Positions 7,719 through 28,854 of a DNA stretch of 33,503 nucleotides are shown piece by piece. The notes under the pieces were generated by a model. It saw only the letters and a program-made list of their open reading frames with translations. It ran no database searches and had not been told where the DNA came from. The position numbers and the translations under genes are program-made. The stretch spans positions 1 to 33,503 of the forward strand of contig JAIKWY010000064.1 in the NCBI GenBank assembly GCA_024684395.1. Reading direction: 5' to 3'. This DNA is from Oscillospiraceae bacterium (GTDB taxonomy: Bacteria; Bacillota; Clostridia; Oscillospirales; Ruminococcaceae). The number at the start of each line of letters is the position of its first letter. The stretch's first letter is position 1.

Positions 7719-9158
7719 ATGTCAAATCAAAGCTATGAAAGCCCGTTCTGCACCCGCTATGCCAGCAAGGAGATGCAGTATCTGTTCTCTGCCGATAAGA
7801 AATTTTCCACATGGCGCAGACTGTGGGTCGCTCTTGCCCGTGCCGAGATGGAGCTCGGTCTGCCGGTGACACAGGCACAGGTCGATCAGCTCGCTGCCAA
7901 CATCGAGAACATCGACTATGCCAAGGCTGCCGAGTATGAGAAGCAATTCCGCCACGATGTCATGGCACATGTCCACACCTACGGCGATGCCTGCCCGGAT
8001 GCGGCGGGTATCATCCACCTTGGTGCGACCTCCTGCTATGTCGGCGACAACACCGACATCATCATCATGCGGGATGCGCTTGCCGTTGTCAAGCGCAAGC
8101 TCGTCAAGGTCATCGCACAGCTGGCACAGTTCGCTGACAAGTACAAGGCACTCCCCTGCCTTGCCTATACTCACCTCCAGCCCGCACAGCTCACCACTAT
8201 CGGCAAGCGTGCCACGCTCTGGTGCAATGAGCTGCTCATGGATCTCGAAGACCTCGACTTCCGCATCGCTTCCCTGAAGCTGCTCGGCTCCAAGGGTACC
8301 ACCGGTACACAGGCTTCCTTCATGGAGCTGTTCGAGGGCGATACCGACAAGATTAAGGCGCTCGAAGCCAAGATCGCTGCCGAGATGGGCTTTGATGCGG
8401 TCGTTCCGGTATCCGGTCAGACCTATTCCCGCAAGGTGGATTATCAGGTATGCTCCGTTCTGGCTGGCATCGCACAGTCGGCGATGAAGTTCTCCAACGA
8501 CATCCGTCTGATGCAGAGCTTCAAGGAGATGGAGGAGCCCTTCGAGAAGAGCCAGATCGGTTCTTCTGCAATGGCATACAAGCGCAATCCGATGCGTGAC
8601 GAGCGTATCACGTCCCTCGCCCGCTATGTGATGTGCGATGTGCTGAACCCGGCATTCACCGCCGGTACACAGTGGTTCGAGAGAACCCTCGACGATTCTG
8701 CCAACAAGCGTATTTCCGTGGCTGAGGCATTCCTCGGCGTGGATGCCATCCTGAATATCATGCTGAATGTCACCGATCCGGAGAACGGCTTTGTCGTGTA
8801 TGAGAAGATCATCCGCAAGCGTGTGATGGCAGAGCTGCCGTTCATGGCAACGGAGAACATCATGATGGATGCCGTGAAGAAGGGCGGCAACCGTCAGGAG
8901 CTGCACGAGAAGATTCGTCAGTACTCCATGCAGGCGGGCGCAAGAGTGAAGCAGGAGGGTCTGGACAACAACCTCTGCGAGCTGATCCTTGCCGATCCGA
9001 TGTTCATGATCTCCAGGGAGGAGATGGACGCCATCATGGCGCCGGAGAACTTCATCGGCCGCTGCCCGCAGCAGGTGGACGAGTTCATTGCCAACTGCGT
9101 GAAGCCCGTTCTCGATGCAAACGGCGTTTCCGATGACAAGGCGGAGATCAATGTCTGA
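7719..9158 (+). CDS. purB: Adenylosuccinate lyase
   Basis: A 479-residue enzyme of the fumarase/aspartase superfamily. It cleaves SAICAR to AICAR and adenylosuccinate to AMP, each releasing fumarate, in purine synthesis. Visible motifs are RHDVMAHVHTYGD and GIIHLGATSCYVGDN (substrate binding, with catalytic His), THLQPAQLTTIGKR, and the flexible signature loop SSAMAYKRNPMRDE with the catalytic serine. The length and the AYKRNP form match the longer, eukaryote-like PurB type rather than the roughly 430-residue Bacillus type. ACGGAGGAACTATC precedes the ATG. The downstream lipoprotein gene overlaps its 3' end by 8 bases. Confidence 0.96.
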   Translation: MSNQSYESPFCTRYASKEMQYLFSADKKFSTWRRLWVALARAEMELGLPVTQAQVDQLAANIENIDYAKAAEYEKQFRHDVMAHVHTYGDACPDAAGIIHLGATSCYVGDNTDIIIMRDALAVVKRKLVKVIAQLAQFADKYKALPCLAYTHLQPAQLTTIGKRATLWCNELLMDLEDLDFRIASLKLLGSKGTTGTQASFMELFEGDTDKIKALEAKIAAEMGFDAVVPVSGQTYSRKVDYQVCSVLAGIAQSAMKFSNDIRLMQSFKEMEEPFEKSQIGSSAMAYKRNPMRDERITSLARYVMCDVLNPAFTAGTQWFERTLDDSANKRISVAEAFLGVDAILNIMLNVTDPENGFVVYEKIIRKRVMAELPFMATENIMMDAVKKGGNRQELHEKIRQYSMQAGARVKQEGLDNNLCELILADPMFMISREEMDAIMAPENFIGRCPQQVDEFIANCVKPVLDANGVSDDKAEINV

Positions 9159-9642
9159 TCGTCTGCGCCGTCTGACGGGGCTGGCGATAGCAGGCGTGCT
9201 GATGGCTGGGATGACCGGCTGTCAGTACTACCCGCCGACCATGCGGCATGAGGAACGGGATATTGAGCTCATGGATCAGGATTTTCCTGCCAAGGTACAT
9301 CTGTCCGGCGATTTCAGCGATGCGGAGCCACGCTTTGAGGAAGTGAAGCTGACCCAGCCCTCCCAGGGGGCTTTAGGGGCTGCGGCGCTGCTCGATGAGT
9401 CGGCTGTCTACAACGCCACGCTGACGTTCACCTATGACGAGGAAGCGCTCAAAAAACTGGAGATCCCGGAGGAACAGCTCATCCTCATCTTCACGAGCCG
9501 TGACTGCAAGACCAGCTACATGCTCAAGGATGTGGAGCGGAACATGGACGCCAACACGCTGAAAGCCAATGTCTGGGAGCTGGGGCATTACCAGTTTGCG
9601 GATGAACGCTATTTCCAGAATCCCACAGCTGAGACTGACTAA
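9151..9642 (+). CDS. Small predicted lipoprotein
   Basis: This 163-residue protein has a positive N-terminus (MSDRLRRL), a hydrophobic segment and a lipobox-like AGMTGC with the lipidated cysteine at residue 24. The start at 9151 has AAGGCGGAG at good spacing and overlaps the end of purB by 8 bases, so expression is probably coupled; an in-frame ATG at 9115 would lie within purB without a ribosome site. The mature part is mixed alpha/beta with many acidic residues and no motif I recognise. It is probably anchored on the outer face of the membrane. Function unknown. Confidence 0.78.
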   Translation: MSDRLRRLTGLAIAGVLMAGMTGCQYYPPTMRHEERDIELMDQDFPAKVHLSGDFSDAEPRFEEVKLTQPSQGALGAAALLDESAVYNATLTFTYDEEALKKLEIPEEQLILIFTSRDCKTSYMLKDVERNMDANTLKANVWELGHYQFADERYFQNPTAETD

Positions 9643-9652
9643 AGATGCAGGT

Positions 9653-9726
9653 GCAGGAGGCTCAGCCTCCTGCCGAGGGAGGTTTAGGAGGGGCGAGCAG
9701 CCCCTCCTAAGTCGGCATCAGCCGAC
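9653..9726 (+). repeat. Three consecutive hairpins upstream of tgt
   Basis: Hairpin 1 has 10-bp arms GCAGGAGGCT/AGCCTCCTGC (9653-9662, 9664-9673). Hairpin 2 has 11-bp arms (9684-9694, 9700-9710) with a 5-nt loop. Hairpin 3 is GTCGGC-ATCA-GCCGAC (9711-9726). None is followed by a T run on the plus strand. They fill the gap between the lipoprotein stop and the tgt ribosome site. Confidence 0.7.
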
Positions 9727-9755
9727 AAAAACTATCACTGATAAGGAGACCCTTC

Positions 9756-10895
9756 ATGTTCACCCTATTTAAAACCGAAGGCACTGCCCGGCGGGGGCAG
9801 TTCGAGACCGTACACGGCACCTTCCAGACGCCGTGCTTCATGAATGTCGGCACGTCCGCTGCCATCAAGGGCGGCATCACCTCGCCGGAGCTGGCGGAGC
9901 TGAAATGTCAGGTGGAGCTCTGCAACACCTATCATCTGCATCTGCGTCCGGGTGACGATATCATCCACAAGATGGGCGGTCTGCACAAGTTCATGAACTG
10001 GCACAAGCCGATCCTGACGGACAGCGGCGGATTTCAGGTATTCTCTCTGTCAAAGCTGCGCAAGATCAAGGAGGAAGGCGTCTATTTCCAGTCGCACCTC
10101 GACGGCAAGCGCATCTTCATGGGACCGGAGGAGAGTATGCGCATCCAGTCACACCTGGCTTCGACCATTGCGATGGCGTTTGACGAATGTGTAGAGAATC
10201 CGGCGCCCTATGACTATGCGGCACGCTCCTGCGAGCGCACGACCCGCTGGCTGTACCGCAGCCGGGATGAAATGCAGCGTCTGAGCATGGCACCGGATAC
10301 CATCAACCCGAAGCAGATGCTGTTCGGCATCAACCAGGGCTCGACCTTCGAGAAGCTGCGTATCGAGCACATGCAGGCGATCCGTGAGCTTGACCTCGAC
10401 GGCTATGCAGTCGGCGGTCTGGCGGTGGGTGAGCCGACGGAGGATATGTATCGCATCCTCGATGCGGTGGTGCCGCACATGCCCGCCAACAAGCCGCGCT
10501 ATCTGATGGGCGTGGGGACGCCGTCCAACATCATCGAGGCGGTGGCACGGGGCATCGACATGTTCGACTGCGTGATGCCGACCCGGAATGCCCGCCACGG
10601 TACCATTTTCACATGGGAAGGGATGCGGCACATGAAGAACTTCACCTATCAGACGGATCCCCGCCCGATGGATGAGCAATGCGATTGTCCGGCGTGCCGG
10701 CAGTTCTCCCGTGCGTATGTGCGGCATCTGTTCAAGGCAAATGAGATGCTCGCCGGACGGCTGACGGTCATCCACAACCTGTATTTCTACAACACCCTCA
10801 CCGAGCGCATCCGGGAAGCCCTCGACAACGGCACGTTCGATGCGTTCCGGAAGCAGTATTCCACGCTGCTCTCCCAGAAAGCGCCGGAAGATTGA
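9756..10895 (+). CDS. tgt: tRNA-guanine transglycosylase (queuine tRNA-ribosyltransferase)
   Basis: A 379-residue enzyme that swaps guanine-34 for the queuosine precursor in GUN-anticodon tRNAs. The conserved blocks are present: NTYHLHLRPGDDII, LTDSGGFQVFSL with the catalytic Asp, GINQGSTFEKLR, GGLAVGEP, and DCVMPTRNARHG with the nucleophilic Asp. The zinc site is CDCPAC-x10-H (CDCPACRQFSRAYVRHL). ATAAGGAGACCCTTC precedes the ATG at 9756. No other queuosine gene is adjacent. A strong terminator ends the gene. Confidence 0.96.
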   Translation: MFTLFKTEGTARRGQFETVHGTFQTPCFMNVGTSAAIKGGITSPELAELKCQVELCNTYHLHLRPGDDIIHKMGGLHKFMNWHKPILTDSGGFQVFSLSKLRKIKEEGVYFQSHLDGKRIFMGPEESMRIQSHLASTIAMAFDECVENPAPYDYAARSCERTTRWLYRSRDEMQRLSMAPDTINPKQMLFGINQGSTFEKLRIEHMQAIRELDLDGYAVGGLAVGEPTEDMYRILDAVVPHMPANKPRYLMGVGTPSNIIEAVARGIDMFDCVMPTRNARHGTIFTWEGMRHMKNFTYQTDPRPMDEQCDCPACRQFSRAYVRHLFKANEMLAGRLTVIHNLYFYNTLTERIREALDNGTFDAFRKQYSTLLSQKAPED

Positions 10896-10901
10896 CACAG
10901 G

Positions 10902-10940
10902 AAAGCCCCCGAAGAGAGGATATTTCTTTTCGGGGGCTTT
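10902..10940 (+). terminator. Terminator after tgt
   Basis: AAAGCCCCCGAA (10902-10913) pairs perfectly with TTCGGGGGCTTT (10929-10940), ending the transcript 7 bp after the tgt stop. Confidence 0.85.
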
Positions 10941-10965
10941 GATCAAAAAAATTTTCATTTAGGAC

Positions 10966-10994
10966 TTGACGAATCCGGAGAAATGTGCTATAAT
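10966..10994 (+). promoter_or_regulatory. Promoter of the tRNA-Thr gene
   Basis: TTGACG (10966-10971) and TATAAT (10989-10994) are separated by 17 bp. The start would be near 11001, about 34 bp upstream of the mature tRNA. Confidence 0.85.
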
Positions 10995-11034
10995 ATATAT
11001 GTTGCGTTTCCGGATCGCTCCGGGATGTACAGAT

Positions 11035-11110
11035 GCTGGTGTAGCTCAGTCGGTAGAGCAGCGCATTCGTAATGCGCAGGTCGGGGGTTCGAGTCCGTTC
11101 ACCAGCTCCA
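11035..11110 (+). tRNA. tRNA-Thr (anticodon CGT)
   Basis: The 76-nt gene folds into a cloverleaf: acceptor GCTGGTG/CACCAGC, D arm GCTC-AGTCGGTAG-AGC, and anticodon stem GCGCA/TGCGC with loop TTCGTAA giving CGT, which reads ACG. The encoded 3' end is TCCA, so CCA is genomic. The T stem is weak: GGGGG faces CCGTT across TTCGAGT, giving two wobbles and one G-G mismatch. It has its own promoter and terminator. Confidence 0.93.
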
Positions 11111-11121
11111 GATTTTTATAG

Positions 11122-11165
11122 GAAAATGGGCGTTTTCTCGATGAGAGGAAACGTCCTATTTCTTT
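11122..11165 (+). terminator. Terminator after tRNA-Thr
   Basis: GGGCGTTTTCTC and GAGAGGAAACGTCC form a stem with small internal irregularities around a short loop near 11140. The run TATTTCTTTTGTTTTG follows. Confidence 0.75.
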
Positions 11166-11314
11166 TGTTTTGCGGCTGTGGACACTACAACGCCTTCTCG
11201 TTCAATGCTATTTTGCTTTCATCCTGCTTATGTTTCACAATCTTACGGTAGTCATCCTTTGAGGATCAGCTGTGCAGCTGCCGCTGCGTCGGATCCGGCT
11301 TTTGAGGATCCTGC

Positions 11315-11343
11315 TTGACTTATTGCTTGTTATTTGGTATACT
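11315..11343 (+). promoter_or_regulatory. Promoter for the metallophosphoesterase gene
   Basis: TTGACT (11315-11320) and TATACT (11338-11343) are 17 bp apart, leaving a leader of about 115 bases. The remaining sequence from 11171 to 11465 holds no gene that I can support. Confidence 0.75.
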
Positions 11344-11465
11344 TTAATTGACGTAATACCCTGGGACCATCCCTTCTGATAGCGAATTTTGTTCCTATTG
11401 TATCCTGTAAAACTCAAATACGACCGTCCGCCCACCGATGCAGACGGTAACAGAAATGAGATGAA

Positions 11466-12575
11466 ATGATGACGCTCACACTGTATATCCTATGGTTTCT
11501 GCTCACTGCGGCATGGATTGCGGCACTGACCGCTGCACAGGTGCCGCTCCGGAAACGGCGTCTTGTGCCGGTGCGGATCATTCTTGCGGTCGTCAAGATC
11601 CTGCTTGGCATGTTGGCTGCCAATCTGGTCATGATCCAGGACATCGGCTATCATTTCTGGGTGTGCTATGTCCTGACAGCCTGCCATATTGCGCTGTATG
11701 GAGATGCACTGGGCGACCTGCTGATCCTGCCGTTTGTGATCGCCGGGAAGCGGGAGAGCTATGCACTGCCGCAGGGCATCCTGTGTACAGCGCTTGCGGT
11801 GAGCTATCTGGTGTTTGGCACGGTCAATATGCAGCTCGTGACAGCGGAACGCCTGACTTTCCGTTCGGAGAAGCTCACCGAAGGCAAGCGGATCGTGTTT
11901 GTCTCCGATCTGCATGTCGGTTCCTCCCAGAGCCTTGCCACGACAGATAAGACCATCCGGATGATCGCAGAAGAGGAGCCGGATCTGGTGCTGCTGGGCG
12001 GCGACATCGTGGATGAATATACCACCAAGGAGGAAATGAACTGGGTGTTCTCGCAGTTTGGTGCGCTGGATGCGCCGGTGTACTACATCTACGGGAACCA
12101 CGACCGCCAGGATAGAAATGAACTGACCGGCGGCGCATTGTATACACCGGAGGAGCTGGAAACCGCCCTACAGGACAGCGGGCTCCGGGTGCTCCGTGAT
12201 GAATGGATCCGGTTTTCGGAGGATCTGGTCATCCTCGGCAGAGAGGACGTCAGCCGTCCGGAACGTCTGCCGCTTGCGGAGATCCCTGCCCGACCGGAGG
12301 ATGCCTTTGTGCTGCTCGTGGATCATGCACCCTACCAGACAGAGGAGATCGAACAGAGCGGCGCTGACTTGCAACTTTCCGGGCATTCCCATGCTGCGCA
12401 GCTGTTCCCCTTGCTGGTGCTCTATGATCTGACAGGGTATGAAGCCTACGGCACCTACCTGCACGGCGCCACCACGCTGTATGTCAGCCCCGGTGCTTCC
12501 GGGTGGTGTATGACCTTCCGTTCGGAGAAACGGTGCAGCTATGCGGTCATCTCGCTCATGCCGGAGATGGACTGA
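11466..12575 (+). CDS. Membrane-anchored calcineurin-like metallophosphoesterase
   Basis: This 369-residue protein has an N-terminal membrane region with about four hydrophobic segments (residues ~3-120). A phosphoesterase domain then carries all metal-binding motifs in order: FVSDLHVG, LLGGDIVDE, YGNHDRQ, LLVDHAPY and SGHSHAAQ. The layout is like YkuE/YaeI-type enzymes, some of which act on lipid-linked pyrophosphates such as UDP-diacylglucosamine; the substrate here is unknown. The ribosome site is weak (AGATGAA just before ATGATG), so the start could be at 11466 or 11469. It has its own promoter and ends at a long shared hairpin. Confidence 0.9.
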   Translation: MMTLTLYILWFLLTAAWIAALTAAQVPLRKRRLVPVRIILAVVKILLGMLAANLVMIQDIGYHFWVCYVLTACHIALYGDALGDLLILPFVIAGKRESYALPQGILCTALAVSYLVFGTVNMQLVTAERLTFRSEKLTEGKRIVFVSDLHVGSSQSLATTDKTIRMIAEEEPDLVLLGGDIVDEYTTKEEMNWVFSQFGALDAPVYYIYGNHDRQDRNELTGGALYTPEELETALQDSGLRVLRDEWIRFSEDLVILGREDVSRPERLPLAEIPARPEDAFVLLVDHAPYQTEEIEQSGADLQLSGHSHAAQLFPLLVLYDLTGYEAYGTYLHGATTLYVSPGASGWCMTFRSEKRCSYAVISLMPEMD

Positions 12576-12601
12576 TACCGCTCCCCTCTCTCAATAGAAA
12601 C

Positions 12602-12638
12602 ACAAGGCTTCAAAGCAGTAAATGCTTTGAAGCCTTGT
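12602..12638. terminator. Long bidirectional terminator
   Basis: A perfect 16-bp stem (12602-12617 with 12623-12638) has the loop GTAAA. It separates the convergent phosphoesterase and DUF4003 genes. Confidence 0.88.
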
Positions 12639-12700
12639 CATTTGCTATGGTGCAGAAAGGTCTGTCATGCTTCTTATACATTTGCAACCAGCTCCCGAAC

Positions 12701-13765
12701 TCAGCCCTTTTCCTGCTCGCTTTCCGCAGCCTGCTCAGCATCACTGCCAGATCCCGAGCTGTCTTTCTCGGTCACAGCGCCAAGTACTGCCGGCAGCACA
12801 TTGGATATCACCGTGATCACAGTTGCCACCTGCTGCGCTTTGATGACGGACAGCGCATTGTTGATGAACGCATTTCTGATCATCGAATTGCCTGTGCCAT
12901 AGCTTTCAGCCACGAGCAATTCCGCCAGCATCAGCCGCTGTCTGAGACCCTCCTGTTTCTCGTCAAAGATGCGGTTGGCTTTCAGGAACGCATTTGCTGC
13001 GAGGATCTCATTGACGATCTGCTCCGGTCCTGCATCCATGCCGATCAGCATACCAAGCGAGGAAAATACATAGCCATCCTCGACCGCCGACTTGTCCTGC
13101 TGTAACAGATCGTAGAGCCGGATGACCTGATCGCATTGTTCCCTGACGTCCTCCCCTGTCAGTGCAAGGATCTCGCTGAGACGCTGCACGGAATCAGACC
13201 CGACTTTGACCTTGCGGGTCTTTTTGAGATAGTCCATGCATTCTTCCATATCACCGAGGATCTGCCCGACCGGTCTGTCCGACAGCGCAAGCAGTATCAC
13301 ATAGGAAATATCCTCCGGATCTGTCAGGAACGGATGCTGCTTCTCCATCTGCTGCATCAGCTCGTTATGCCTTTCAATGACTGCATCCGTATCGCTTTGT
13401 CTGCCAAGGTCAGTGATCAGCATCGCTGCAAGCACCATGTACAGATCACTCAAAAAATGCCCCTTGTGCAGCTTCTGGTACATCAGCTTGACATCCTCGA
13501 TATACTGTTCCGCATCGTCTGACAGCGCCATTTCGCTGAGCAGCGCCAGCTTTACAGAATCTCTGCACACAGAGAACAGGTCTGTATGTTGATTGAGAAT
13601 GCTGCGGCATTCTGCCAGCTTTTCAGCATCCGCTTCCCTGCCTGCACCGGTAAAGATCAGCGCCGCAGCGATGCGCATGACTGTCTTTTCAAACAGAAAC
13701 TTTTTGGAAATGGCGGTGCGGTTCCGTTCAAACAACTCGCATGTCTGTTGTAATTGCTCAGTCAT
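12701..13765 (-). CDS. DUF4003 family protein
   Basis: A 354-residue, almost wholly helical cytoplasmic protein. The start at 13765 is set by GGAGGTTACT before ATG; an upstream in-frame extension would cross the promoter. It matches the DUF4003 layout: an N-terminal ELFERNRTAISKKFLFEK region, then an array of paired helices with DLYMVLAAMLITDLG, YVILLALSDRP and GYVFSSLGMLIGMD. The C-terminus has one hydrophobic stretch (NALSVIKAQQVATVITVISN) and an acidic Ser/Gly tail. In other Firmicutes the family often lies near stress or membrane genes; its function is unknown. Confidence 0.85.
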   Translation of the reverse strand: MTEQLQQTCELFERNRTAISKKFLFEKTVMRIAAALIFTGAGREADAEKLAECRSILNQHTDLFSVCRDSVKLALLSEMALSDDAEQYIEDVKLMYQKLHKGHFLSDLYMVLAAMLITDLGRQSDTDAVIERHNELMQQMEKQHPFLTDPEDISYVILLALSDRPVGQILGDMEECMDYLKKTRKVKVGSDSVQRLSEILALTGEDVREQCDQVIRLYDLLQQDKSAVEDGYVFSSLGMLIGMDAGPEQIVNEILAANAFLKANRIFDEKQEGLRQRLMLAELLVAESYGTGNSMIRNAFINNALSVIKAQQVATVITVISNVLPAVLGAVTEKDSSGSGSDAEQAAESEQEKG

Positions 13766-13826
13766 AGTAACCTCCTGTCTCACATCTGAGAGCTCTCTCT
13801 GGTGATGGCGCAATACTTCTGCTTTT

Positions 13827-13855
13827 ATTATAACATATGTAAACGGCCAATGCAA
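13827..13855 (-). promoter_or_regulatory. Promoter of the DUF4003 gene
   Basis: On the minus strand TTGCAT (13850-13855) and TATAAT (13827-13832) are separated by 17 bp. Transcription would start about 55 bases before the ATG. Confidence 0.78.
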
Positions 13856-13931
13856 TAGGGATGACTGAACCGGCTATGGCAGATGCATTTACTCTGCTGA
13901 AGTGCATTTTTGAGGGCAGATCTTACAACAG

Positions 13932-22730: not shown

Positions 22731-22759
22731 TTGACAAATTCCCGGATAAGTGCTATAAT
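22731..22759 (+). promoter_or_regulatory. Consensus promoter of the repeat-peptide operon
   Basis: TTGACA (22731-22736) and TATAAT (22754-22759) are exactly 17 bp apart, a near-ideal sigma-70-type promoter. The start would be near 22766. The shared pectin-locus motif is absent, so control differs from the flanking genes. Confidence 0.9.
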
Positions 22760-22818
22760 ACAAATAACATGATGCTCGATCGAGTATCCATGTAATTATG
22801 TGCGAGGAGGACTTTTTT

Positions 22819-23136
22819 ATGGGATATAGTGGCGGAAGCGGCGGAAGCCCGAGCAGCGGCGGTTATAACAGACCGGATTATTCTTATGGCGGAAGCTATA
22901 ACGAAAATACGGGTTATACAAGACCGGACTACTCCTATGGCGGCAGTTATAATGAGACGACCGGTTATACGAGTCCTGACTATTCCTATGGCGGCACGTA
23001 TAATGAGACGACCGGATATAGCAGCCCTGACTATTCCTATGGCGGCAGTTACAACGCGACCACCGGTTATACGAGCCCGGATTATTCCTATGGAGGAAGT
23101 TACTCCAGCGGATCTGATGGCAGCGGAGGAAAGTAG
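22819..23136 (+). CDS. Tyr/Gly-rich tandem-repeat peptide, candidate modified precursor
   Basis: This 105-residue protein has GAGGAGG 9 bp before ATG at 22819; an ATG at 22798 precedes that site and is not preferred. After a short MGYSGGSGGSPSSG head come five 17-residue units of the form GYTSPDYSYGGSYNETT, the last grading into SSGSDGSGGK. Each unit has four Tyr, one Pro-Asp, a Gly pair and, in units 1-4, an N-x-[ST]-like Asn. There is no Cys, signal peptide or membrane segment. The strong promoter and ribosome site suggest high expression. Enzyme genes follow after a hairpin, an arrangement typical of RiPP precursors. It could instead be a structural or adhesive protein. I do not recognise the family. 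Confidence 0.82.
   Translation: MGYSGGSGGSPSSGGYNRPDYSYGGSYNENTGYTRPDYSYGGSYNETTGYTSPDYSYGGTYNETTGYSSPDYSYGGSYNATTGYTSPDYSYGGSYSSGSDGSGGK
22861..23115 (+). repeat. Five 51-bp coding repeats
   Basis: Units begin at 22861, 22912, 22963, 23014 and 23065, exactly 51 bp apart. The GGTTAT start and the GACTATTCCTATGGCGGC core are largely kept at DNA level, while the T/S/N/R positions vary. The fifth unit diverges after its GGSY codons. Confidence 0.92.
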
Positions 23137-23208
23137 TTTTCCCGTCCCTTTGAATGCATATGCCTTAACATCTCATGTTACGAAAGAAATTGTTTTATAG
23201 TGAATCGA

Positions 23209-23245
23209 ATCCCCCCATAATACGATCCTTTGTATTGTGGGGGAT
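23209..23245 (+). terminator. Hairpin between peptide and enzyme genes, candidate leaky terminator
   Basis: ATCCCCCCATAATAC (23209-23223) pairs with GTATTGTGGGGGAT (23232-23245), with one bulged C and one G-T pair. No T run follows, so read-through is expected. No promoter is evident before the ACP gene at 23273. Confidence 0.65.
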
Positions 23246-23272
23246 CACTGTATCCAATAGAGGAAGAATGAA

Positions 23273-23494
23273 ATGGAACTGAAAGATCTATGCGACCTGA
23301 TCGCAGAGTTATCCGATGTCTCACCAGACAGCATCCGGAACGACAGCCAATTGCATCACGATCTTGGACTCTGCTCATATGAGATCATGACTTTGATCGC
23401 TATGATCGAAGCAAAAACCAATAAACAGATCAATATCACAGAGTTGAATGGTCAGATCACTGTCGGGGATCTGCTGGCATATATCGCTCCATAA
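23273..23494 (+). CDS. Acyl carrier protein (phosphopantetheine-binding)
   Basis: This 73-residue single-domain carrier protein has AGGAAG before ATG. It shows the four-helix ACP pattern: an N-terminal helix, DSIRNDSQLHHDLGLCSYEIM with the probable phosphopantetheine serine Ser35 in place of the usual GxDSL, and the later EAKTNKQINITELNGQITVGDLLAYI. The LGLCSYE variant differs from fatty-acid ACPs and is more like stand-alone carriers in specialised pathways. A ligase in the same operon is the likely loading enzyme. The radical SAM gene follows after 14 bp. Confidence 0.88.
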   Translation: MELKDLCDLIAELSDVSPDSIRNDSQLHHDLGLCSYEIMTLIAMIEAKTNKQINITELNGQITVGDLLAYIAP

Positions 23495-23508
23495 GAAAGG
23501 GGAGTAGG

Positions 23509-24567
23509 ATGGCAAATATCATGCTTACTGACGTTTGCAACTTGCATTGTCCCTATTGTTTTGCAAACGAATTTGTCAATAAAAGTGACACTGAAATAAC
23601 TGTATCCGCTTTTCAAAAGGCTGTTGATTTTATTTTAGGAGACGGCTCGCATCATTCGGTTGGTCTGATCGGCGGGGAACCTACAACGCATTCCAGGTTT
23701 GCGGAGCTTCTCACGCTCCTTATCAAAGATAGGCGTGCAGAAGCGATCGTCCTCTATACGAACGGCGTCCTGCTTGACAGGTATATGGATCTCATCACAC
23801 ATAAAAAAGTCCATATCCTTATCAATTGCAACGCACCGGAAGACATCGGTGATGCCAATTTTAAACGGATGTGCCGGAATCTCGATCATCTGTATCAGAA
23901 GAAGCTGTTTGAGGATAATATCACGCTTGGCATCAATATGTATAAACCGGATTTTTCTTATTCCTATCTTATGGAACTGCTGTTAAAGTACAAACAGGAT
24001 CATGTGCGTGTGTCCATTACCGTACCGAACATGGAAAACACCCGCAATCATAATGCACATGACTATTTCCAAACCATGAAAGGAAGAGTCTTGGCATTTT
24101 TTGAGGAATTGTTATCCAATGGTATCGTTCCTAATTTTGACTGCAACAAGATCCCCCATTGTCAGCTGACGCCAAAGGAACTTGAACCATTTCAGAAATA
24201 TATGGAGCAGGGACCGCTCCGGGACGCTATTATGCGCAGCAACATCCACGACAGTATCGTAAAATGTACTCCTGTTGTAGACATACGTCAGGATCTTACA
24301 GCGGTCAGATGCTTTGGTCTGTCGGAGGTTTCAAAACAGAATATCTCTGATTTCAAGAATATCACCGAACTCATCAATTTCTATATCCGGACAATTGACG
24401 CATATGCCTATAACACTGTCTATTCTGCACAGTGCGTTGCATGTAAGCACCGTAAAACGCTGATGTGTTCCGGCGGATGCCTCGCCTTTAAAATAAACGA
24501 GATACTCTCAGTTCAGCAATATGCAGAGCAGCGGATCTCTGACTTCAAGGGGAGGAAAAATGAATGA
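23509..24567 (+). CDS. Radical SAM enzyme with SPASM-like C-terminal cysteines
   Basis: This 352-residue enzyme has the [4Fe-4S] motif CNLHCPYC very near its N-terminus (C10, C14, C17), a GGEPTTH motif for SAM binding, and a partial TIM barrel. The C-terminal part has CVACKHRKTLMCSGGC, a cysteine group like a shortened SPASM/twitch domain that would hold an auxiliary cluster. Peptide-modifying radical SAM enzymes often have this arrangement, but so do enzymes of other substrates. There is no recognisable RiPP leader-binding domain. AAAGGGGAG precedes the ATG. Its stop overlaps the next start as ATGA. Confidence 0.9.
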   Translation: MANIMLTDVCNLHCPYCFANEFVNKSDTEITVSAFQKAVDFILGDGSHHSVGLIGGEPTTHSRFAELLTLLIKDRRAEAIVLYTNGVLLDRYMDLITHKKVHILINCNAPEDIGDANFKRMCRNLDHLYQKKLFEDNITLGINMYKPDFSYSYLMELLLKYKQDHVRVSITVPNMENTRNHNAHDYFQTMKGRVLAFFEELLSNGIVPNFDCNKIPHCQLTPKELEPFQKYMEQGPLRDAIMRSNIHDSIVKCTPVVDIRQDLTAVRCFGLSEVSKQNISDFKNITELINFYIRTIDAYAYNTVYSAQCVACKHRKTLMCSGGCLAFKINEILSVQQYAEQRISDFKGRKNE

Positions 24568-25103
24568 CCGGGCTTGTTTTAAGAAAAGTGGTGCTGCATA
24601 GAGATCTGAAGGATCTCTATCGGATGATGATGAACGATGATCAGCATCTCTTCTCAGTCAAGATCACAGCAAATTCTGAACAGCAATTCAATGACTGGTT
24701 ATGCGAACGCTTAAAATATGATTTCCATGATTTTTTCATCATAGCCACTGAAAAGAATGATCAGGCGATCGGTTATGCACACAATTATGATTTTTCTTTA
24801 CAGAACGGCCATTGTAAAGTAGTGGAATACCTTTCTCCGGAATACCGTGATTCCGGGATCGGCGGATTTGGCGGCATACTGTTTATGGATCATTTATTTC
24901 AAACATATCCACTGCGCAAATTGTACACGGCTGTATACAGCTACAATGAACGAAGCCTGACAAACAACCAGAAAGCCGGATTTGTTGAAGAGGGTGCTTT
25001 GGAGCAATACCGCTACTACGATGGGACATACCATAGTCTGCACATCCTTTCCATAAGCCGTCAGGATTTCTACCAAAGTTTCGGAGGTGTTCTGAAACGA
25101 TGA
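24564..25103 (+). CDS. GNAT-family acyltransferase (first of two)
   Basis: This 179-residue protein has the GNAT fold. The acyl-donor pyrophosphate loop is in the PEYRDSGIGGFGG segment (residues ~91-103), and a later NNQKAGFVEEG matches the family's C-terminal region (usually NxxxxxxGF). Its start overlaps the radical SAM stop by ATGA, with GGGGAGGAAAA as ribosome site. Members acylate amines using acyl-CoA and sometimes acyl-ACP; the ACP in this operon makes the latter possible. The substrate is unknown. Confidence 0.85.
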   Translation: MTGLVLRKVVLHRDLKDLYRMMMNDDQHLFSVKITANSEQQFNDWLCERLKYDFHDFFIIATEKNDQAIGYAHNYDFSLQNGHCKVVEYLSPEYRDSGIGGFGGILFMDHLFQTYPLRKLYTAVYSYNERSLTNNQKAGFVEEGALEQYRYYDGTYHSLHILSISRQDFYQSFGGVLKR

Positions 25104-25921
25104 AATGCATCAATCTGTGCGATATTCTTGACAAGTCCGATCTTCAGGGAGATATTGCAGAGGAACTGCTTCAAACACCCTGTATTGCAGATGCCGGCAG
25201 ACTGTATATCGGTTCCTATTTTTGCAGTCAGTATTTCTTAAAAATGGACTTTCTGTCTGAGATCAAAAAGCTGATCGGACAAAAACACTATTCCTTAACG
25301 CTTGTGATCCCGATCATTTCAGAAAAGGATCTGGCAAGATCCAAAGAGCAGATCCGGCATATCCTCGATGAACTTCCGATAGATGAAGTGACCGTCAACG
25401 ATGTTGGGATGCTCTCTGCATTATCCGCCATCCCGCAGATCAAGATCAACCTCGGACGTCTTTTCTTTAAGGACGCACGGGACATTCGCTTGCCTGCTTA
25501 TTACCACAGCACCTTGCGTCCGGCATTCCTGGATCAGTTAAGTGATCTTCGCAGCCGGTACGGGATCCAATACGCTGAACTTGATCCCATCTGCTCGGTA
25601 ATGGATCTTCGCAATGAAACAGACGTGAAGCTTGCCCTTCATGGACCATTCGGGTATCTGACAACAGGCAATATCTGCAAATATGCTTCGATCAGCAAAG
25701 ACATACAATATAAATTCCGTCCTAATGCAACCTGCAATAAGGAATGTCAGCGCATTTTTGAGATCTATGCCCCGACGCCTCCAGATTACGAATTATATCG
25801 GATCGGCAGGGCGGTCTATTTTGCATCAGCGGCCCCGGAAACGATCAACGGCAGCTTTGAACGGTCGATCTATGCGCCTTTTCATGAAATGGTAAAGCTC
25901 AGGAAAGAAGGTTCTTTGTGA
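25100..25921 (+). CDS. U32-family protein resembling UbiV
   Basis: This 273-residue protein overlaps the preceding GNAT by ATGA. It has four cysteines placed as in UbiV, the partner of the anaerobic ubiquinone hydroxylase: C42 in YIGSYFCSQ (UbiV-like YLGExxCSRR), then C193, C212 and C216 in GNICKY and NATCNKECQR, giving C-x18-C-x3-C. HGPFGYLTTG just before matches the conserved H-G-x-L segment. Such cysteines hold a [4Fe-4S] cluster. Peptidase activity is therefore unlikely despite the U32 name. UbiV acts only with a second U32 protein, and the next gene fits that role. Confidence 0.78.
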   Translation: MKCINLCDILDKSDLQGDIAEELLQTPCIADAGRLYIGSYFCSQYFLKMDFLSEIKKLIGQKHYSLTLVIPIISEKDLARSKEQIRHILDELPIDEVTVNDVGMLSALSAIPQIKINLGRLFFKDARDIRLPAYYHSTLRPAFLDQLSDLRSRYGIQYAELDPICSVMDLRNETDVKLALHGPFGYLTTGNICKYASISKDIQYKFRPNATCNKECQRIFEIYAPTPPDYELYRIGRAVYFASAAPETINGSFERSIYAPFHEMVKLRKEGSL

Positions 25922-26880
25922 TGAAGATATTGGTACCTTTGAATCATCGTGAAGATATTGCAGCATTCAGCTCTTTGGGGGCTGATGAGATATACCTTGG
26001 TTTCTATGACGAAAAATGGGAAGAACGCTTCGGAACGTATGCCGATATCAATAGAATGTCCGGATTCGGAAGGCTCGCAAATCAATACAGCTTCTCCGAG
26101 ATCCTGGAGATCATTCAAAGTATACGTTCCCACAATATGGATGCGTTTGTCACCATGAATGCAAATGTATACAGCACCGAAGCACTCAGATGGATCGAAG
26201 CCCGATACTTCCCTGCGCTTGCGGAAGCCGGCGTCAGCGGCGTGATCGTTTCAACGGAAAGCATGGCAGATATCGCTTTGAAGGCAGGATTACAGGTCGT
26301 GGCAAGCACCATGCTGGGGCTTTACAATTCAGATATTGTTCGTTATTATTATTCAATGGGCATCAGAAGAATGATCGTTCCTCGTGATCTTTCTCTGTGT
26401 GAGATCGCTATGATCCGTGAGAAGGTCCCGGATATTGATCTGGAAGTATTCTTTATGCGCAACGGCTGTGTTTTTTCTGATTCGTACTGTCTGGGCACGC
26501 ACAGAAAAGAATGCGGTTCCACTTGCGGAAGCCTGAGATCGTTGCCCAAAACGATCGTGACATCTTCATCCGACTTTCAGTATCGGCATGATGCGGAACT
26601 GAACGACTTGTTATATCAGAATTATTTTCATCACGATGCGTGCGGCATGTGTGCGCTGTATCAGATGAAGGAAATGGGGGTCACATCCCTGAAAATAGTG
26701 GGTCGGGCAGATGTGCCGGGTTCAGTTGCCGAAGATATACGGATCACAAAAGAAAACATGGCGATCCTTGAACAATGTGCAAGTGAAAAAGAATATCTGG
26801 AAAGGATGATCCTGCCGCGCAATAGTTACAGGCAGTGTAAATTAGGATTGTCCTGCTATTATCCCGAAGTACGTTTCTAA
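25918..26880 (+). CDS. U32-family protein resembling UbiU
   Basis: This 320-residue U32 protein begins KILVPLNHREDIAAFSSLGADEIYLGFYD, a TIM-barrel start like UbiU (PAGNxxxLxxAxxxGADAVYxG). The cluster motif is C184-x6-C191-x7-C199-x3-C203 in NGCVFSDSYC-LGTHRKECGSTC, followed by CGMCALYQMKEMGVTSLKIVGR. The start may be GTG at 25918, overlapping the previous stop, or ATG at 25921; AAGAAGG serves both. U32 proteins of this type (UbiU, TrhP, RlhA) perform oxygen-independent hydroxylations, with prephenate as oxygen donor in the cases studied. A hydroxylation step in this pathway is inferred. Confidence 0.85.
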   Translation: MMKILVPLNHREDIAAFSSLGADEIYLGFYDEKWEERFGTYADINRMSGFGRLANQYSFSEILEIIQSIRSHNMDAFVTMNANVYSTEALRWIEARYFPALAEAGVSGVIVSTESMADIALKAGLQVVASTMLGLYNSDIVRYYYSMGIRRMIVPRDLSLCEIAMIREKVPDIDLEVFFMRNGCVFSDSYCLGTHRKECGSTCGSLRSLPKTIVTSSSDFQYRHDAELNDLLYQNYFHHDACGMCALYQMKEMGVTSLKIVGRADVPGSVAEDIRITKENMAILEQCASEKEYLERMILPRNSYRQCKLGLSCYYPEVRF

Positions 26881-26894
26881 TGAAGGAGTGTGCT

Positions 26895-27386
26895 ATGACC
26901 ATACGAAAATATAACAGAGGGACAGACGTGCCGTTTCTGTATCATGAAATGAGCAGACTGGGACTGCTTACAGATCACATCATAGGAAACGACTCGGAGT
27001 TTATCGGTTTTTTTGAGCATCAGCTTCGTACCTATTATTCTGAATTCTGGATCACAGAAGACAGCCGGACCAGGCAGGCAAACGGATTCATCTACACCTG
27101 GGATTACCGTGTCAGGGATGGTCACTGTCATTTTGATTTTTGTTTTTTAAAGCCAGATACCCAGCGGGATCAGGCACTTGTTCAGCAGGTATTACAGCAG
27201 TTGTTCCGGGAATATCCGCTCAATCGGGTCTTTGTGTATGTTGATTCAGATGACACAGAGAAACTGGCACTTTGTCATTCCCTGAATGCAAAAGAGGAAG
27301 CTTTGCTCCAGGAATATCATTACAAAAAAGGACAGTATACGGATGTTCATGTCATGCGTTTGAGCCGCGGATCATTGAACAGTTGA
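26895..27386 (+). CDS. GNAT-like acyltransferase (second of two)
   Basis: A 163-residue protein. The start at 26895 has AAGGAG 6 bp upstream; an ATG at 26880 precedes that site. It resembles the first GNAT in layout (MTIRKYNRGTDVPFLYHEM, ITEDSRTRQANGFIYTW, DGHCHFDFCF) but has lost the clear GxG loop (KPDTQRDQALVQQ), so it may be a divergent or inactive copy or use a different donor. Length and order suggest an ancient duplication. The ligase follows after 11 bp. Confidence 0.72.
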   Translation: MTIRKYNRGTDVPFLYHEMSRLGLLTDHIIGNDSEFIGFFEHQLRTYYSEFWITEDSRTRQANGFIYTWDYRVRDGHCHFDFCFLKPDTQRDQALVQQVLQQLFREYPLNRVFVYVDSDDTEKLALCHSLNAKEEALLQEYHYKKGQYTDVHVMRLSRGSLNS

Positions 27387-27397
27387 AGGTGTATTAC

Positions 27398-28771
27398 ATG
27401 AGCTACATCGCATTTGCGTCATTTGCCGAGATGCTTGAGAACAGCGTTTCACGCTACAATGATCGTATTTTATTTGAGACATATGACCGGAAATGGGACT
27501 ATCGCACTTTTTATCATGATGTTTTATGCTTTGCAGAAGCCGTATCCGCATTCACGCACCAGTATCTCAAGATCAGCATAGAGCACCCCTATCATTTTTC
27601 AGTGGTGTGCTTTGCAGCATTCATCACTGGAAAAACCGCTGTTTTGTCGGAAGTGAAACATGCAGAGGAAGATGTCCTCTGCATAGACGATGCTTTTTTC
27701 AGTAAACATTTTGCTCCTGAAGCTGTGCCAAGCCTGCATCTGAAGGGATCCGGCGAAGACCATCCGTGTGTGATCATTCAGAGTTCGGGAACGACCTCTG
27801 TTTCAAAGGGCGTAATGCTATCACAGAAGAATCTGATCACCGAACTGCATATGCTGATACAGTATAAGCCGTTCCCGGAGCATGAAGTGTATTATCACAT
27901 TTTGCCCTATACGCATCTGTTCGGACTGCTTGGTGAATTTCTGATCCCATTCTGTACGGGCGGAAAGATCTGCTTTGCCGATCAGAATATCAACCTGTTC
28001 CACAACTTTTCTGTATTTAAGCCCACATACTTATGCATTCCTCCTGCCATTGTTGATTCGATCGCAAAAGTATTACAAGCCACCCGGAATTATGAATTTG
28101 CAACCGGAGGCAAACTAAAAGCGATCATTTCAGGGGGCGCATTCTTACATGAGAAAACCCGAAACATCCTGCTGTCCTATGGAGTACAAGTATACATTGC
28201 GTATGGTCTGACAGAATGCTCCCCTGTTATCAGCATAGAACGTGACGGGAGCACATTATGTGGAAGTGTGGGACAGATCCTGCCTTGCTGTAATGTGAAA
28301 ATAGAAGATGGGGAGATCGTCGTATCCGGCAACACGGTCATGCTCGGTTATTGGAACGATCCCGCAGCGACAGAAGCCGTATTGAAAGCCGGTTGGCTGC
28401 ATACCGGAGATATGGGGTATATTGATGATAACGGTTATCTGTTCCTCACAGGAAGGATCTCAAATCTGATCGTGTTTGAAAACGGTGAAAAGCTCATTCC
28501 AGAATCTTTGGAAGAAGAGATCGATCGCCTTCCCGATGTGACAGAATCGCTGGTGATCGGTCAAACGAAAAACAATGATGCCAAGGTCGTTCTTCATATA
28601 TTTGTCTATTCTCCTCAAAGCGGATCCCACGATACAATTGCAGCAGCCATCAAAACTGTCACAGGTCAATATGCACCTGCGGGGTCATTACATGGCATCA
28701 CATTTCTATCAGGACCTTTCAAACGAAATGCCCTCGGAAAAATAGATAGAAACCATTATAGAAACCAATAA
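27398..28771 (+). CDS. AMP-binding acyl/aryl-acid ligase (ANL superfamily)
   Basis: This 457-residue adenylating enzyme has the phosphate loop SSGTTSVSKGV (~129-139), YGLTECSP (~268), GWLHTGDMG (~332-340), GRISNLIV and the catalytic lysine in KRNALGKIDR (~441-450). The start at 27398 is chosen after GAAGGTG; an upstream in-frame extension lies in the GNAT gene. It is shorter than usual at the N-terminus, like stand-alone ligases that load a carrier protein. It would activate a carboxylic acid and probably transfer it to the ACP at 23273. The acid cannot be predicted. It ends the operon before a strong hairpin. Confidence 0.9.
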   Translation: MSYIAFASFAEMLENSVSRYNDRILFETYDRKWDYRTFYHDVLCFAEAVSAFTHQYLKISIEHPYHFSVVCFAAFITGKTAVLSEVKHAEEDVLCIDDAFFSKHFAPEAVPSLHLKGSGEDHPCVIIQSSGTTSVSKGVMLSQKNLITELHMLIQYKPFPEHEVYYHILPYTHLFGLLGEFLIPFCTGGKICFADQNINLFHNFSVFKPTYLCIPPAIVDSIAKVLQATRNYEFATGGKLKAIISGGAFLHEKTRNILLSYGVQVYIAYGLTECSPVISIERDGSTLCGSVGQILPCCNVKIEDGEIVVSGNTVMLGYWNDPAATEAVLKAGWLHTGDMGYIDDNGYLFLTGRISNLIVFENGEKLIPESLEEEIDRLPDVTESLVIGQTKNNDAKVVLHIFVYSPQSGSHDTIAAAIKTVTGQYAPAGSLHGITFLSGPFKRNALGKIDRNHYRNQ

Positions 28772-28826: not shown

Positions 28827-28854
28827 AGGCTCTGCACATTCCCGTGCAGAGCCT
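28827..28854. terminator. Bidirectional terminator between the operon and the pectate lyase gene
   Basis: AGGCTCTGCAC (28827-28837) pairs perfectly with GTGCAGAGCCT (28844-28854) around ATTCCC. TGCTTTGTTATTCTG follows on the plus strand and GATCTTT on the minus strand. Confidence 0.85.

Follow-up and report, generated by a model that had tools for sequence, protein, structure and literature searches.

Two papers (PMC11574389, PMC6747719) describe U32 oxidases as Fe-S proteins able to hydroxylate RNA bases and precursors of ubiquinone independently of O2; prephenate is given as the donor in the ubiquinone case and is suspected to be so for the rest of these enzymes. Here we analyze an operon in which two U32-type genes accompany genes for a radical S-adenosylmethionine (SAM) enzyme, for acyl transfer and for a small tyrosine-repeat protein. 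The operon occupies positions 22731-28771 of the window, by which we mean the whole analyzed stretch of 33,503 nucleotides (contig JAIKWY010000064.1 of an Oscillospiraceae bacterium, a gut-type anaerobe); related loci elsewhere carry L numbers. On balance, we lean towards the reading that it encodes an anaerobic system similar to those of ribosomally synthesized and post-translationally modified peptides (RiPPs), in which the radical SAM enzyme and the U32 pair modify the tyrosine repeats and, in a subset of loci, an acyl group is added. The gene set and its conservation, the linkage to a Tyr-rich protein, the cysteine sets and the fold resemblance of the radical SAM enzyme are direct observations.

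The closest described radical SAM enzymes are the SPASM-type RiPP maturases, such as SuiB of streptide, CteB, SkfB, ChlB and PapB. The operon enzyme shares with them the fold over most of its length (TM 0.5-0.6 by query length), the CxxxCxxC motif, a SPASM-like cysteine set and a small substrate gene nearby. It differs in that its best NCBIfam score, among the best 25 of the 55 models matching it, is 57.4 bits against a cut-off of 380, Pfam SPASM does not match it, and it is partnered with U32 proteins, its presumed substrate being a Tyr protein of several repeats in which no leader is evident. Like the ubiquinone hydroxylase UbiU/UbiV, the operon has an adjacent gene pair with similar four-cysteine sets, one member of which matches UbiU; unlike UbiU/UbiV, that member misses the UbiU cut-off, the other is not UbiV by sequence, and the linkage is to a peptide rather than to ubiquinone genes.

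In biphenomycin-like RiPPs (PMC12257519), an MNIO hydroxylates Phe and a B12 radical SAM enzyme cross-links, both on one ribosomal peptide. The window would share the combination of an aromatic-ring hydroxylase with a radical SAM enzyme, but its U32 pair would act on Tyr, and the operon has no B12-type radical SAM enzyme. In selidamides, GNAT-type acyltransferases acylate Lys or Orn of ribosomal peptides, according to PMC9505594; the window similarly has a GNAT beside a ribosomal peptide, Lys being a known acceptor, and differs in also having a ligase and an acyl carrier protein (ACP). The preliminary description of the operon, made from the DNA alone, knew of no pathway with this gene set, and a full-text literature search, judged on titles and abstract openings, also returned none. 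In particular, we found neither a system of radical SAM and U32 enzymes (with RiPP, tyrosine-rich, operon or gene cluster as terms) nor U32 peptidases in posttranslational hydroxylation in full-text literature, which mostly leaves out subscription papers, so that an earlier description is possible.

The tyrosine-repeat protein

The first gene of the operon (22819..23136, plus strand) encodes a protein of 105 aa, the presumed substrate. As noted earlier, it is built of 17-residue units such as YSYGGSYNENTGYTRPD; there are five Tyr repeats, and the only Lys is the C-terminal residue. It has no Pfam match at E 0.1. Comparison of the first four units (six pairs, 16 codons each) yielded 36 synonymous and 15 non-synonymous codon differences, raw counts uncorrected for site numbers. 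As synonymous differences outnumber non-synonymous ones, this suggests that the protein sequence of the repeats is what is kept.

One peptide type is common to six loci from Bacillota and Actinomycetota: homologues of the window protein are present in L004, L005, L007 and L009, and L064 has a peptide of the same type. In all six peptides, [SN]YGG occurs five times at steps of 16-17 residues, the sequence ends in GGK or GSGK, and Cys and Trp are absent; the L005 peptide has one extra S-Y-D-G at its start. The L007 and L009 peptides are near-copies, so the six represent about five independent lines. The likeness holds although the radical SAM enzymes of L004, L005, L007 and L009 are only 47-59% identical to that of the window. 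Resilin and mussel foot proteins are also Gly/Ser/Tyr repeats with cross-linked or hydroxylated Tyr, formed by an animal, O2-dependent chemistry; the likeness is in Tyr-repeat character only, and no homology is claimed.

Spliceases target X-Y-G, and a [SN]-Y-G-G site occurs in every repeat of the six peptides. The radical SAM enzyme might therefore excise tyramine or break the backbone at S-Y-G sites, with the U32 proteins acting on the resulting groups. We find this improbable, since the YYSD, YSNY and GYDNHY substrates of other loci mostly lack X-Y-G, and no splicease family is among the best 25 of the 55 NCBIfam matches of the enzyme.

Linkage of the radical SAM gene to Tyr-rich proteins

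To be counted as Tyr-rich, an open reading frame (ORF) had to contain at least 10 Y+W and at least 35 of YWGSNDT in 50 residues, a composition criterion set after seeing the data. It was applied to 1458 ORFs of at least 60 aa, covering 447 kb in 27 radical SAM loci. Nineteen ORFs passed, one per locus, each lying no more than 1 kb from the radical SAM gene, while none of the 1135 ORFs farther away did. A conserved precursor gene beside modifying enzymes, which is one mark of a RiPP system, is thus seen in 19 of 27 loci as a low-complexity protein rich in Tyr, Gly, Ser and Asn, with six peptides being of one type. The Tyr proteins differ in sequence (DSYGGYYN, SYSYGNGYT, YYSD, YSNYSNY, GYDNHY) and have the composition in common, as would be expected of substrates rather than chance neighbours.

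The first criterion, 10 Y in 50 residues, had given a passing ORF within 1 kb in 13 of 22 loci, of which two (L012, L013) were spurious, the ORF being a piece of the U32 gene; it flagged six ORFs in L012 and L013 altogether, and missed L030-L033, where Trp shares the role of Tyr. The four ORFs of L012 fail the composition criterion. The set of 27 leaves out L013 (a tandem copy on the L012 contig), L035 (a contig end with no radical SAM gene), L046 (plasmid) and L036-L039 (viral), as well as the short or duplicate loci L001-L003, L016-L025, L040-L045, L047-L057 and L063.

Tyr proteins and U32 genes tend to occur together. Both are present in 16 of the 27 loci, a Tyr protein only in three, a U32 gene only in one, and neither in seven (Fisher p 9e-4, relatedness ignored); L064 was counted as without U32, its U32 genes being on another contig. 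For L014 and L012, the U32 assignment falls short of the Pfam cut-off; a model from which both were excluded nevertheless finds them at 2.4e-54 and 2.7e-26, respectively. In a tree of 23 radical SAM rows, the window is joined by L004 and L005 (100/99), and four changes are needed to explain the Tyr label, against a shuffled mean of 6.9 (5/500 shuffles as low); the long-branch rows L027, L028, L046, L038, L014 and L012 make deep placements unsure. Hence the Tyr protein is clustered on the tree, not universal. The wider core comprises the radical SAM enzyme, the U32 proteins and the Tyr protein, and the ligase, ACP and second GNAT belong to a subset.

Radical SAM enzyme

The radical SAM gene (23509..24567, plus strand; PF04055, E 1.5e-15) encodes an enzyme with SPASM-like C-terminal cysteines. 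The CxxxCxxC motif (C10, C14, C17) is invariant both in 11 and in 16 sequences; eight further Cys are invariant in the 11, and of these C320 is only nearly invariant among the 16. The preliminary description pointed out that radical SAM enzymes with C-terminal cysteines often modify peptides, and the structural model (predicted local distance difference test, pLDDT, 80.4) fits this: its top 11 PDB matches are SuiB, ChlB, anSME, TigE, 5why and SkfB, where 5why, a sactipeptide enzyme, is presumably CteB. As modelled, then, the enzyme most resembles peptide maturases. Still, the best 25 of the 55 NCBIfam models matching it, PapB, DynA, SCIFF and other peptide maturases among them, all fall below their cut-offs.

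Two other roles for the enzyme were considered. Pyrroloquinoline quinone (PQQ) formation follows the logic of a radical SAM enzyme plus a ring hydroxylase, and PqqE is among the fold matches, at rank 38; by this analogy, the Tyr protein could be converted into a quinone-like, redox-active protein used by a broader enzyme system, much as happens when PQQ or quinohemoproteins mature. This has a low probability in our view, as the quinohemoprotein maturase model reaches just 30.7 bits, far from the 453 required, and no further enzyme is conserved across the loci among the nine query families scored. The second role is that of a viperin-like defence gene cluster, suggested by PADLOC pVip models, which match the enzyme at 1.9e-11. 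The best pVip match is limited to residues 2-123, the generic radical SAM core, while the cysteines are SPASM-like, the top fold matches are of the SuiB type with viperin only 13th, and the U32 and Tyr neighbours do not fit. We rejected the defence reading, leaving it next to no probability.

U32 proteins

The preliminary description counted two U32 proteins. One of them, U32b (25918..26880, plus strand, starting with GTG at 25918 or ATG at 25921), is confirmed by PF01136 (E 1.4e-30) and aligns with E. coli UbiU (hhalign probability 97.8, 246 columns). Its four Fe-S cysteines, C183-x6-C190-x11-C202-x38-C241, are kept in 7/7 sequences (L006, split over two frames, was left out). The motifs given in PMC6747719 are CX6CX16CX38C for UbiU and CXnCX12CX3C for UbiV; compared to the former, the middle gap of U32b (CX6CX11CX38C) is five residues shorter. 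With 49.8 bits against the NCBIfam UbiU cut-off of 440, we class U32b as a UbiU-like protein, not UbiU.

The identity of the other, U32a (25100..25921, plus strand), as a U32 protein and possible UbiV-like partner is possible, based on its cysteine pattern, its adjacency to U32b and a weak fold match. Pfam and NCBIfam give no match at E 0.1. Four cysteines, C42, C193, C212 and C216, are invariant in 6/6 sequences and follow the order of the UbiV motif, with one gap longer (CXnCX18CX3C). Profiles of U32b and U32a had no match among PDB sequences, nor did U32a in a viral structure library at 0.001.

The genome of the window encodes two other U32 proteins, to which the operon pair is thus additional. 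It also has two matches to prephenate dehydratase and therefore can be expected to make prephenate.

ACP, GNATs and ligase

Four further genes on the plus strand point to acyl transfer. The ACP (23273..23494, 73 aa; PF00550, E 4.6e-9) has a GLCS motif, with Ser for phosphopantetheine, also found in L004 and L005. The adenylate-forming acyl/aryl ligase (27398..28771; PF00501, E 1.4e-39) has the motifs SSGTT, YGLTE, TGD, TGR and a C-terminal GK, whereas the L064 ligase has two of these five patterns only. GNAT1 (24564..25103; PF13302, E 2.5e-8) carries the R/QxxGxG loop, the acyl-CoA loop motif of GNATs, as do 6/6 homologues. GNAT2 (26880..27386, starting with ATG at 26880 or 26895) has no Pfam match and one NCBIfam match, PseH, below cut-off; the GNAT1 profile matches it at 4.3e-20, making the two homologues. 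Thus, of the two GNATs reported earlier, the first stands on domain and loop and the second on homology to the first. Among 29 loci scanned, ACP and GNAT2 are restricted to the window, L004 and L005, while the ligase is also found in L064 and L015.

This set would also fit a small-molecule pathway, in which an acyl or aryl compound is assembled by the ligase, ACP and GNATs and hydroxylated by U32, with the Tyr protein serving just as a scaffold or to form condensates. The ligase with its motifs, the ACP and the GNATs occur in L004 and L005 as in the window, and UbiU/UbiV act on a small ring compound according to PMC6747719. We nevertheless consider such a pathway unlikely: the Tyr protein stays with the radical SAM and U32 genes where ligase and ACP are not found (L006-L009, L014 and the loci of genome family f176), and the fold of the radical SAM enzyme is nearest to peptide maturases. 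The two alternatives of the preliminary description, that the repeats are modified or that they receive an acid carried by the ACP, could both be true; the first concerns the wider core of radical SAM, U32 and Tyr proteins, while acyl genes occur in few loci.

Operon structure

A sigma-70-type promoter with an extended -10 element precedes the operon (22731-22759, plus strand). The earlier claim of a consensus promoter was borne out, as TTGACA-17-TATAAT matches at 12/12 positions with TG ahead of the -10. Directly 3' of the -10 lies a near-palindrome, GATGCTCGATCGAGTATC (22772..22789), a putative operator-like element read off the sequence, and an AGGAGG ribosome site of the Tyr-repeat gene is at 22805-22810 (plus strand). 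The seven enzyme and carrier genes were described as tightly packed in one direction. This holds for them, all on the plus strand, which overlap by ATGA at 24564 and 25100, by GTGATG at 25918 and by 1 nt at 26880, or have gaps of 11 nt (GNAT2 to ligase) and 14 nt (ACP to radical SAM gene). The repeat gene, by contrast, is set apart from them by 136 nt with a strong RNA hairpin (23196..23252, plus strand; 14-bp inner stem). The whole 139-nt hairpin stretch has z -3.28, with equal stability in 1/200 shuffles, and the hairpin is a possible attenuator or mRNA stabilizer.

A terminator-like hairpin follows the ligase gene (28827..28854, plus strand; 11 pairs, weak T tail); the region contains 11 sites of this terminator-like kind, where 4.5 would be expected. 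The genes that flank the operon, on the opposite strand, encode secreted-type proteins (a DUF6055 protein with a laminin-G domain, and a dockerin protein), and therefore the operon stands alone.

Distribution and related loci

The operon set is patchy in distribution. U32a, used as a single query, has a match in 2/297 genomes of the family, and the radical SAM profile at E 1e-30 in 4/391 genomes of the class and 5/398 of the phylum, the own genome being counted each time. A scan of named genomes yielded 12 loci, titled as Bacillota-type bacteria, Slackia (Actinomycetota) and Gastranaerophilales.

All eight genes are present in identical order in L004 and L005. L064, in genome G056, has the peptide, radical SAM enzyme, GNAT1 and ligase, with a 4'-phosphopantetheinyl transferase upstream, and another contig end of this genome (L035) carries U32b and part of U32a. 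In L007 (Slackia equolifaciens DSM 24851) and L009, U32b and U32a are on the strand opposite to the peptide, radical SAM enzyme and GNAT1. L006 and L008 have a Tyr-rich tail directly upstream of the radical SAM enzyme, U32a and U32b; in L008 it ends a protein that, by eye, looks membrane-bound. L015 comprises a ligase, a SYSYGNGYT-repeat peptide and a radical SAM enzyme, and L014 a U32-type gene, a radical SAM enzyme and, two genes on, a YYSD-repeat protein. In family f176, the radical SAM enzyme is present in 8/25 genomes, six of which (L029-L033, L058, L059, L061) have a second SPASM radical SAM enzyme, a U32-type protein, a YSNYSNY/Trp protein and the radical SAM enzyme in a row, while two (L060, L062) lack this row.

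L010, L060 and L062 form a supported radical SAM clade; with L011, which is outside the tree, all four make one branch with no Tyr protein and no U32 found. The clade's genes (L060:1501-7643, L062:2201-8271, L010:6750-10032) are beside a molybdo-enzyme Fe-S subunit and a major facilitator superfamily transporter (lactate type in L060). In L060, the first domain of the molybdo-enzyme large subunit is just at the PF21423 cut-off (pyrogallol-hydroxytransferase-like), and the L062 gene adjoins a similar molybdo-enzyme gene by eye. L012:7185-11134 (Gastranaerophilales) contains a B12-methyltransferase-type radical SAM gene, the radical SAM relative and a U32-like gene in two frames, with L013 being a second copy on the same contig. 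L026:7027-14952 is a peptide cluster of different appearance: next to the relative are a second radical SAM gene, for which DynA is the best NCBIfam model though below its cut-off, and two genes that by eye resemble insulinase-type peptidases.

The window enzyme had no match in the phage collection at 1e-8. On a 138-kb viral contig (L038; L037 looks alike), where TGA is apparently read as Trp, the region 7998-13900, with its frames read by eye, seems to encode a radical SAM relative (25% identity), a Tyr/His/Asn-repeat protein with GYNNH repeats, two more radical SAM enzymes and a U32-like protein; a related set with a tyrosine-rich protein is thus probably found in a phage as well. L034:3504-14368 has four radical SAM genes, a GYDNHY/GCNTHS repeat protein and, by eye, subtilase-like and phage-tail-like genes, and its repeat protein may be a modified tail protein. 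Among plasmids, the only match was a distant one from Chlorohelix (L046, 27% identity) without a Tyr-rich neighbour; there, L046:6339-13388 encodes a PqqD-like protein (by eye), two more annotated radical SAM enzymes and two proteins ending in Cys-containing tails.

Proposed function

From the data above we infer the individual reactions, the sequence in which they occur and what the product is for. The small five-repeat protein would be the substrate, perhaps produced in larger amounts than the enzymes. The SPASM-type radical SAM enzyme would modify its repeats, most likely by a carbon-centred cross-link or another oxidation at or beside Tyr; bond formation seems likely because of the SuiB-like fold and the analogy with biphenomycin-like peptides. 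The U32a/U32b pair, laid out like UbiU/UbiV, would hydroxylate aromatic rings without O2, with prephenate as the likely oxygen donor. That the ring is one of peptidyl Tyr is suggested by the linkage of such a pair to a protein outstanding only in Tyr. In window-type operons, the ligase would activate an acid and load it onto ACP, and GNAT1 would transfer the acyl group to the peptide, plausibly to the C-terminal Lys or to new hydroxyls, a step proposed because selidamide GNATs acylate Lys or Orn. GNAT2 may be a non-catalytic or carrier-facing partner of GNAT1. Candidate products are a Tyr- or catechol-rich adhesive, a metal- or redox-active material, or a condensate-forming protein.

A number of observations weigh against this proposal. 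The preliminary description would have given up the action of the enzymes on the repeat protein if homologous operons consistently lacked a repeat peptide. This idea survives with 19 of 27 loci, but the peptide is not always adjacent, as eight loci (L010, L011, L012, L026, L027, L028, L060, L062) have no Tyr protein. Seven of these have no U32 found either, and L012 has the U32 and radical SAM genes. Conversely, no U32 gene is near the Tyr protein in L015 and L034 (none found) and in L064. Since all these loci miss the Tyr protein, U32 or both, the radical SAM family is wider than the proposed function, and U32 is dispensable to it. Eight of the 19 Tyr loci come from the six f176 genomes, and these rows are not independent. 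U32a is not recognized as UbiV, the hhalign probability with the E. coli protein being 0.1, and its low-confidence model (pLDDT 72.7) matches the U32 peptidase 5d88 weakly (E 4.9e-3, TMt 0.51), second among other barrels, with no PDB match at 0.001. The acyl-CoA loop is absent from GNAT2 (0/3). The window matches include no Pfam domain of a leader peptide or recognition element, and no conserved leader was seen by eye, no dedicated search having been made. No protease or exporter was identified.

More broadly, and only tentatively, U32 oxidases might hydroxylate protein tyrosines too, giving gut Bacillota, Slackia and possibly phages an O2-free route to a protein of the 3,4-dihydroxyphenylalanine (DOPA) type, probably cross-linked, which by analogy could be an anaerobic counterpart of PQQ or mussel-glue chemistry. 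If true, U32 oxidases would gain a protein substrate, and the system would illustrate a way for strict anaerobes to obtain protein rich in catechols or cross-links when O2 is absent. It would also define a recognizable class of radical SAM enzyme, U32 proteins and Tyr-repeat protein that is unnamed by the best 25 of the 55 NCBIfam models, and the role of orphan U32 proteins in gut anaerobes would become directly testable with a 105-residue substrate.

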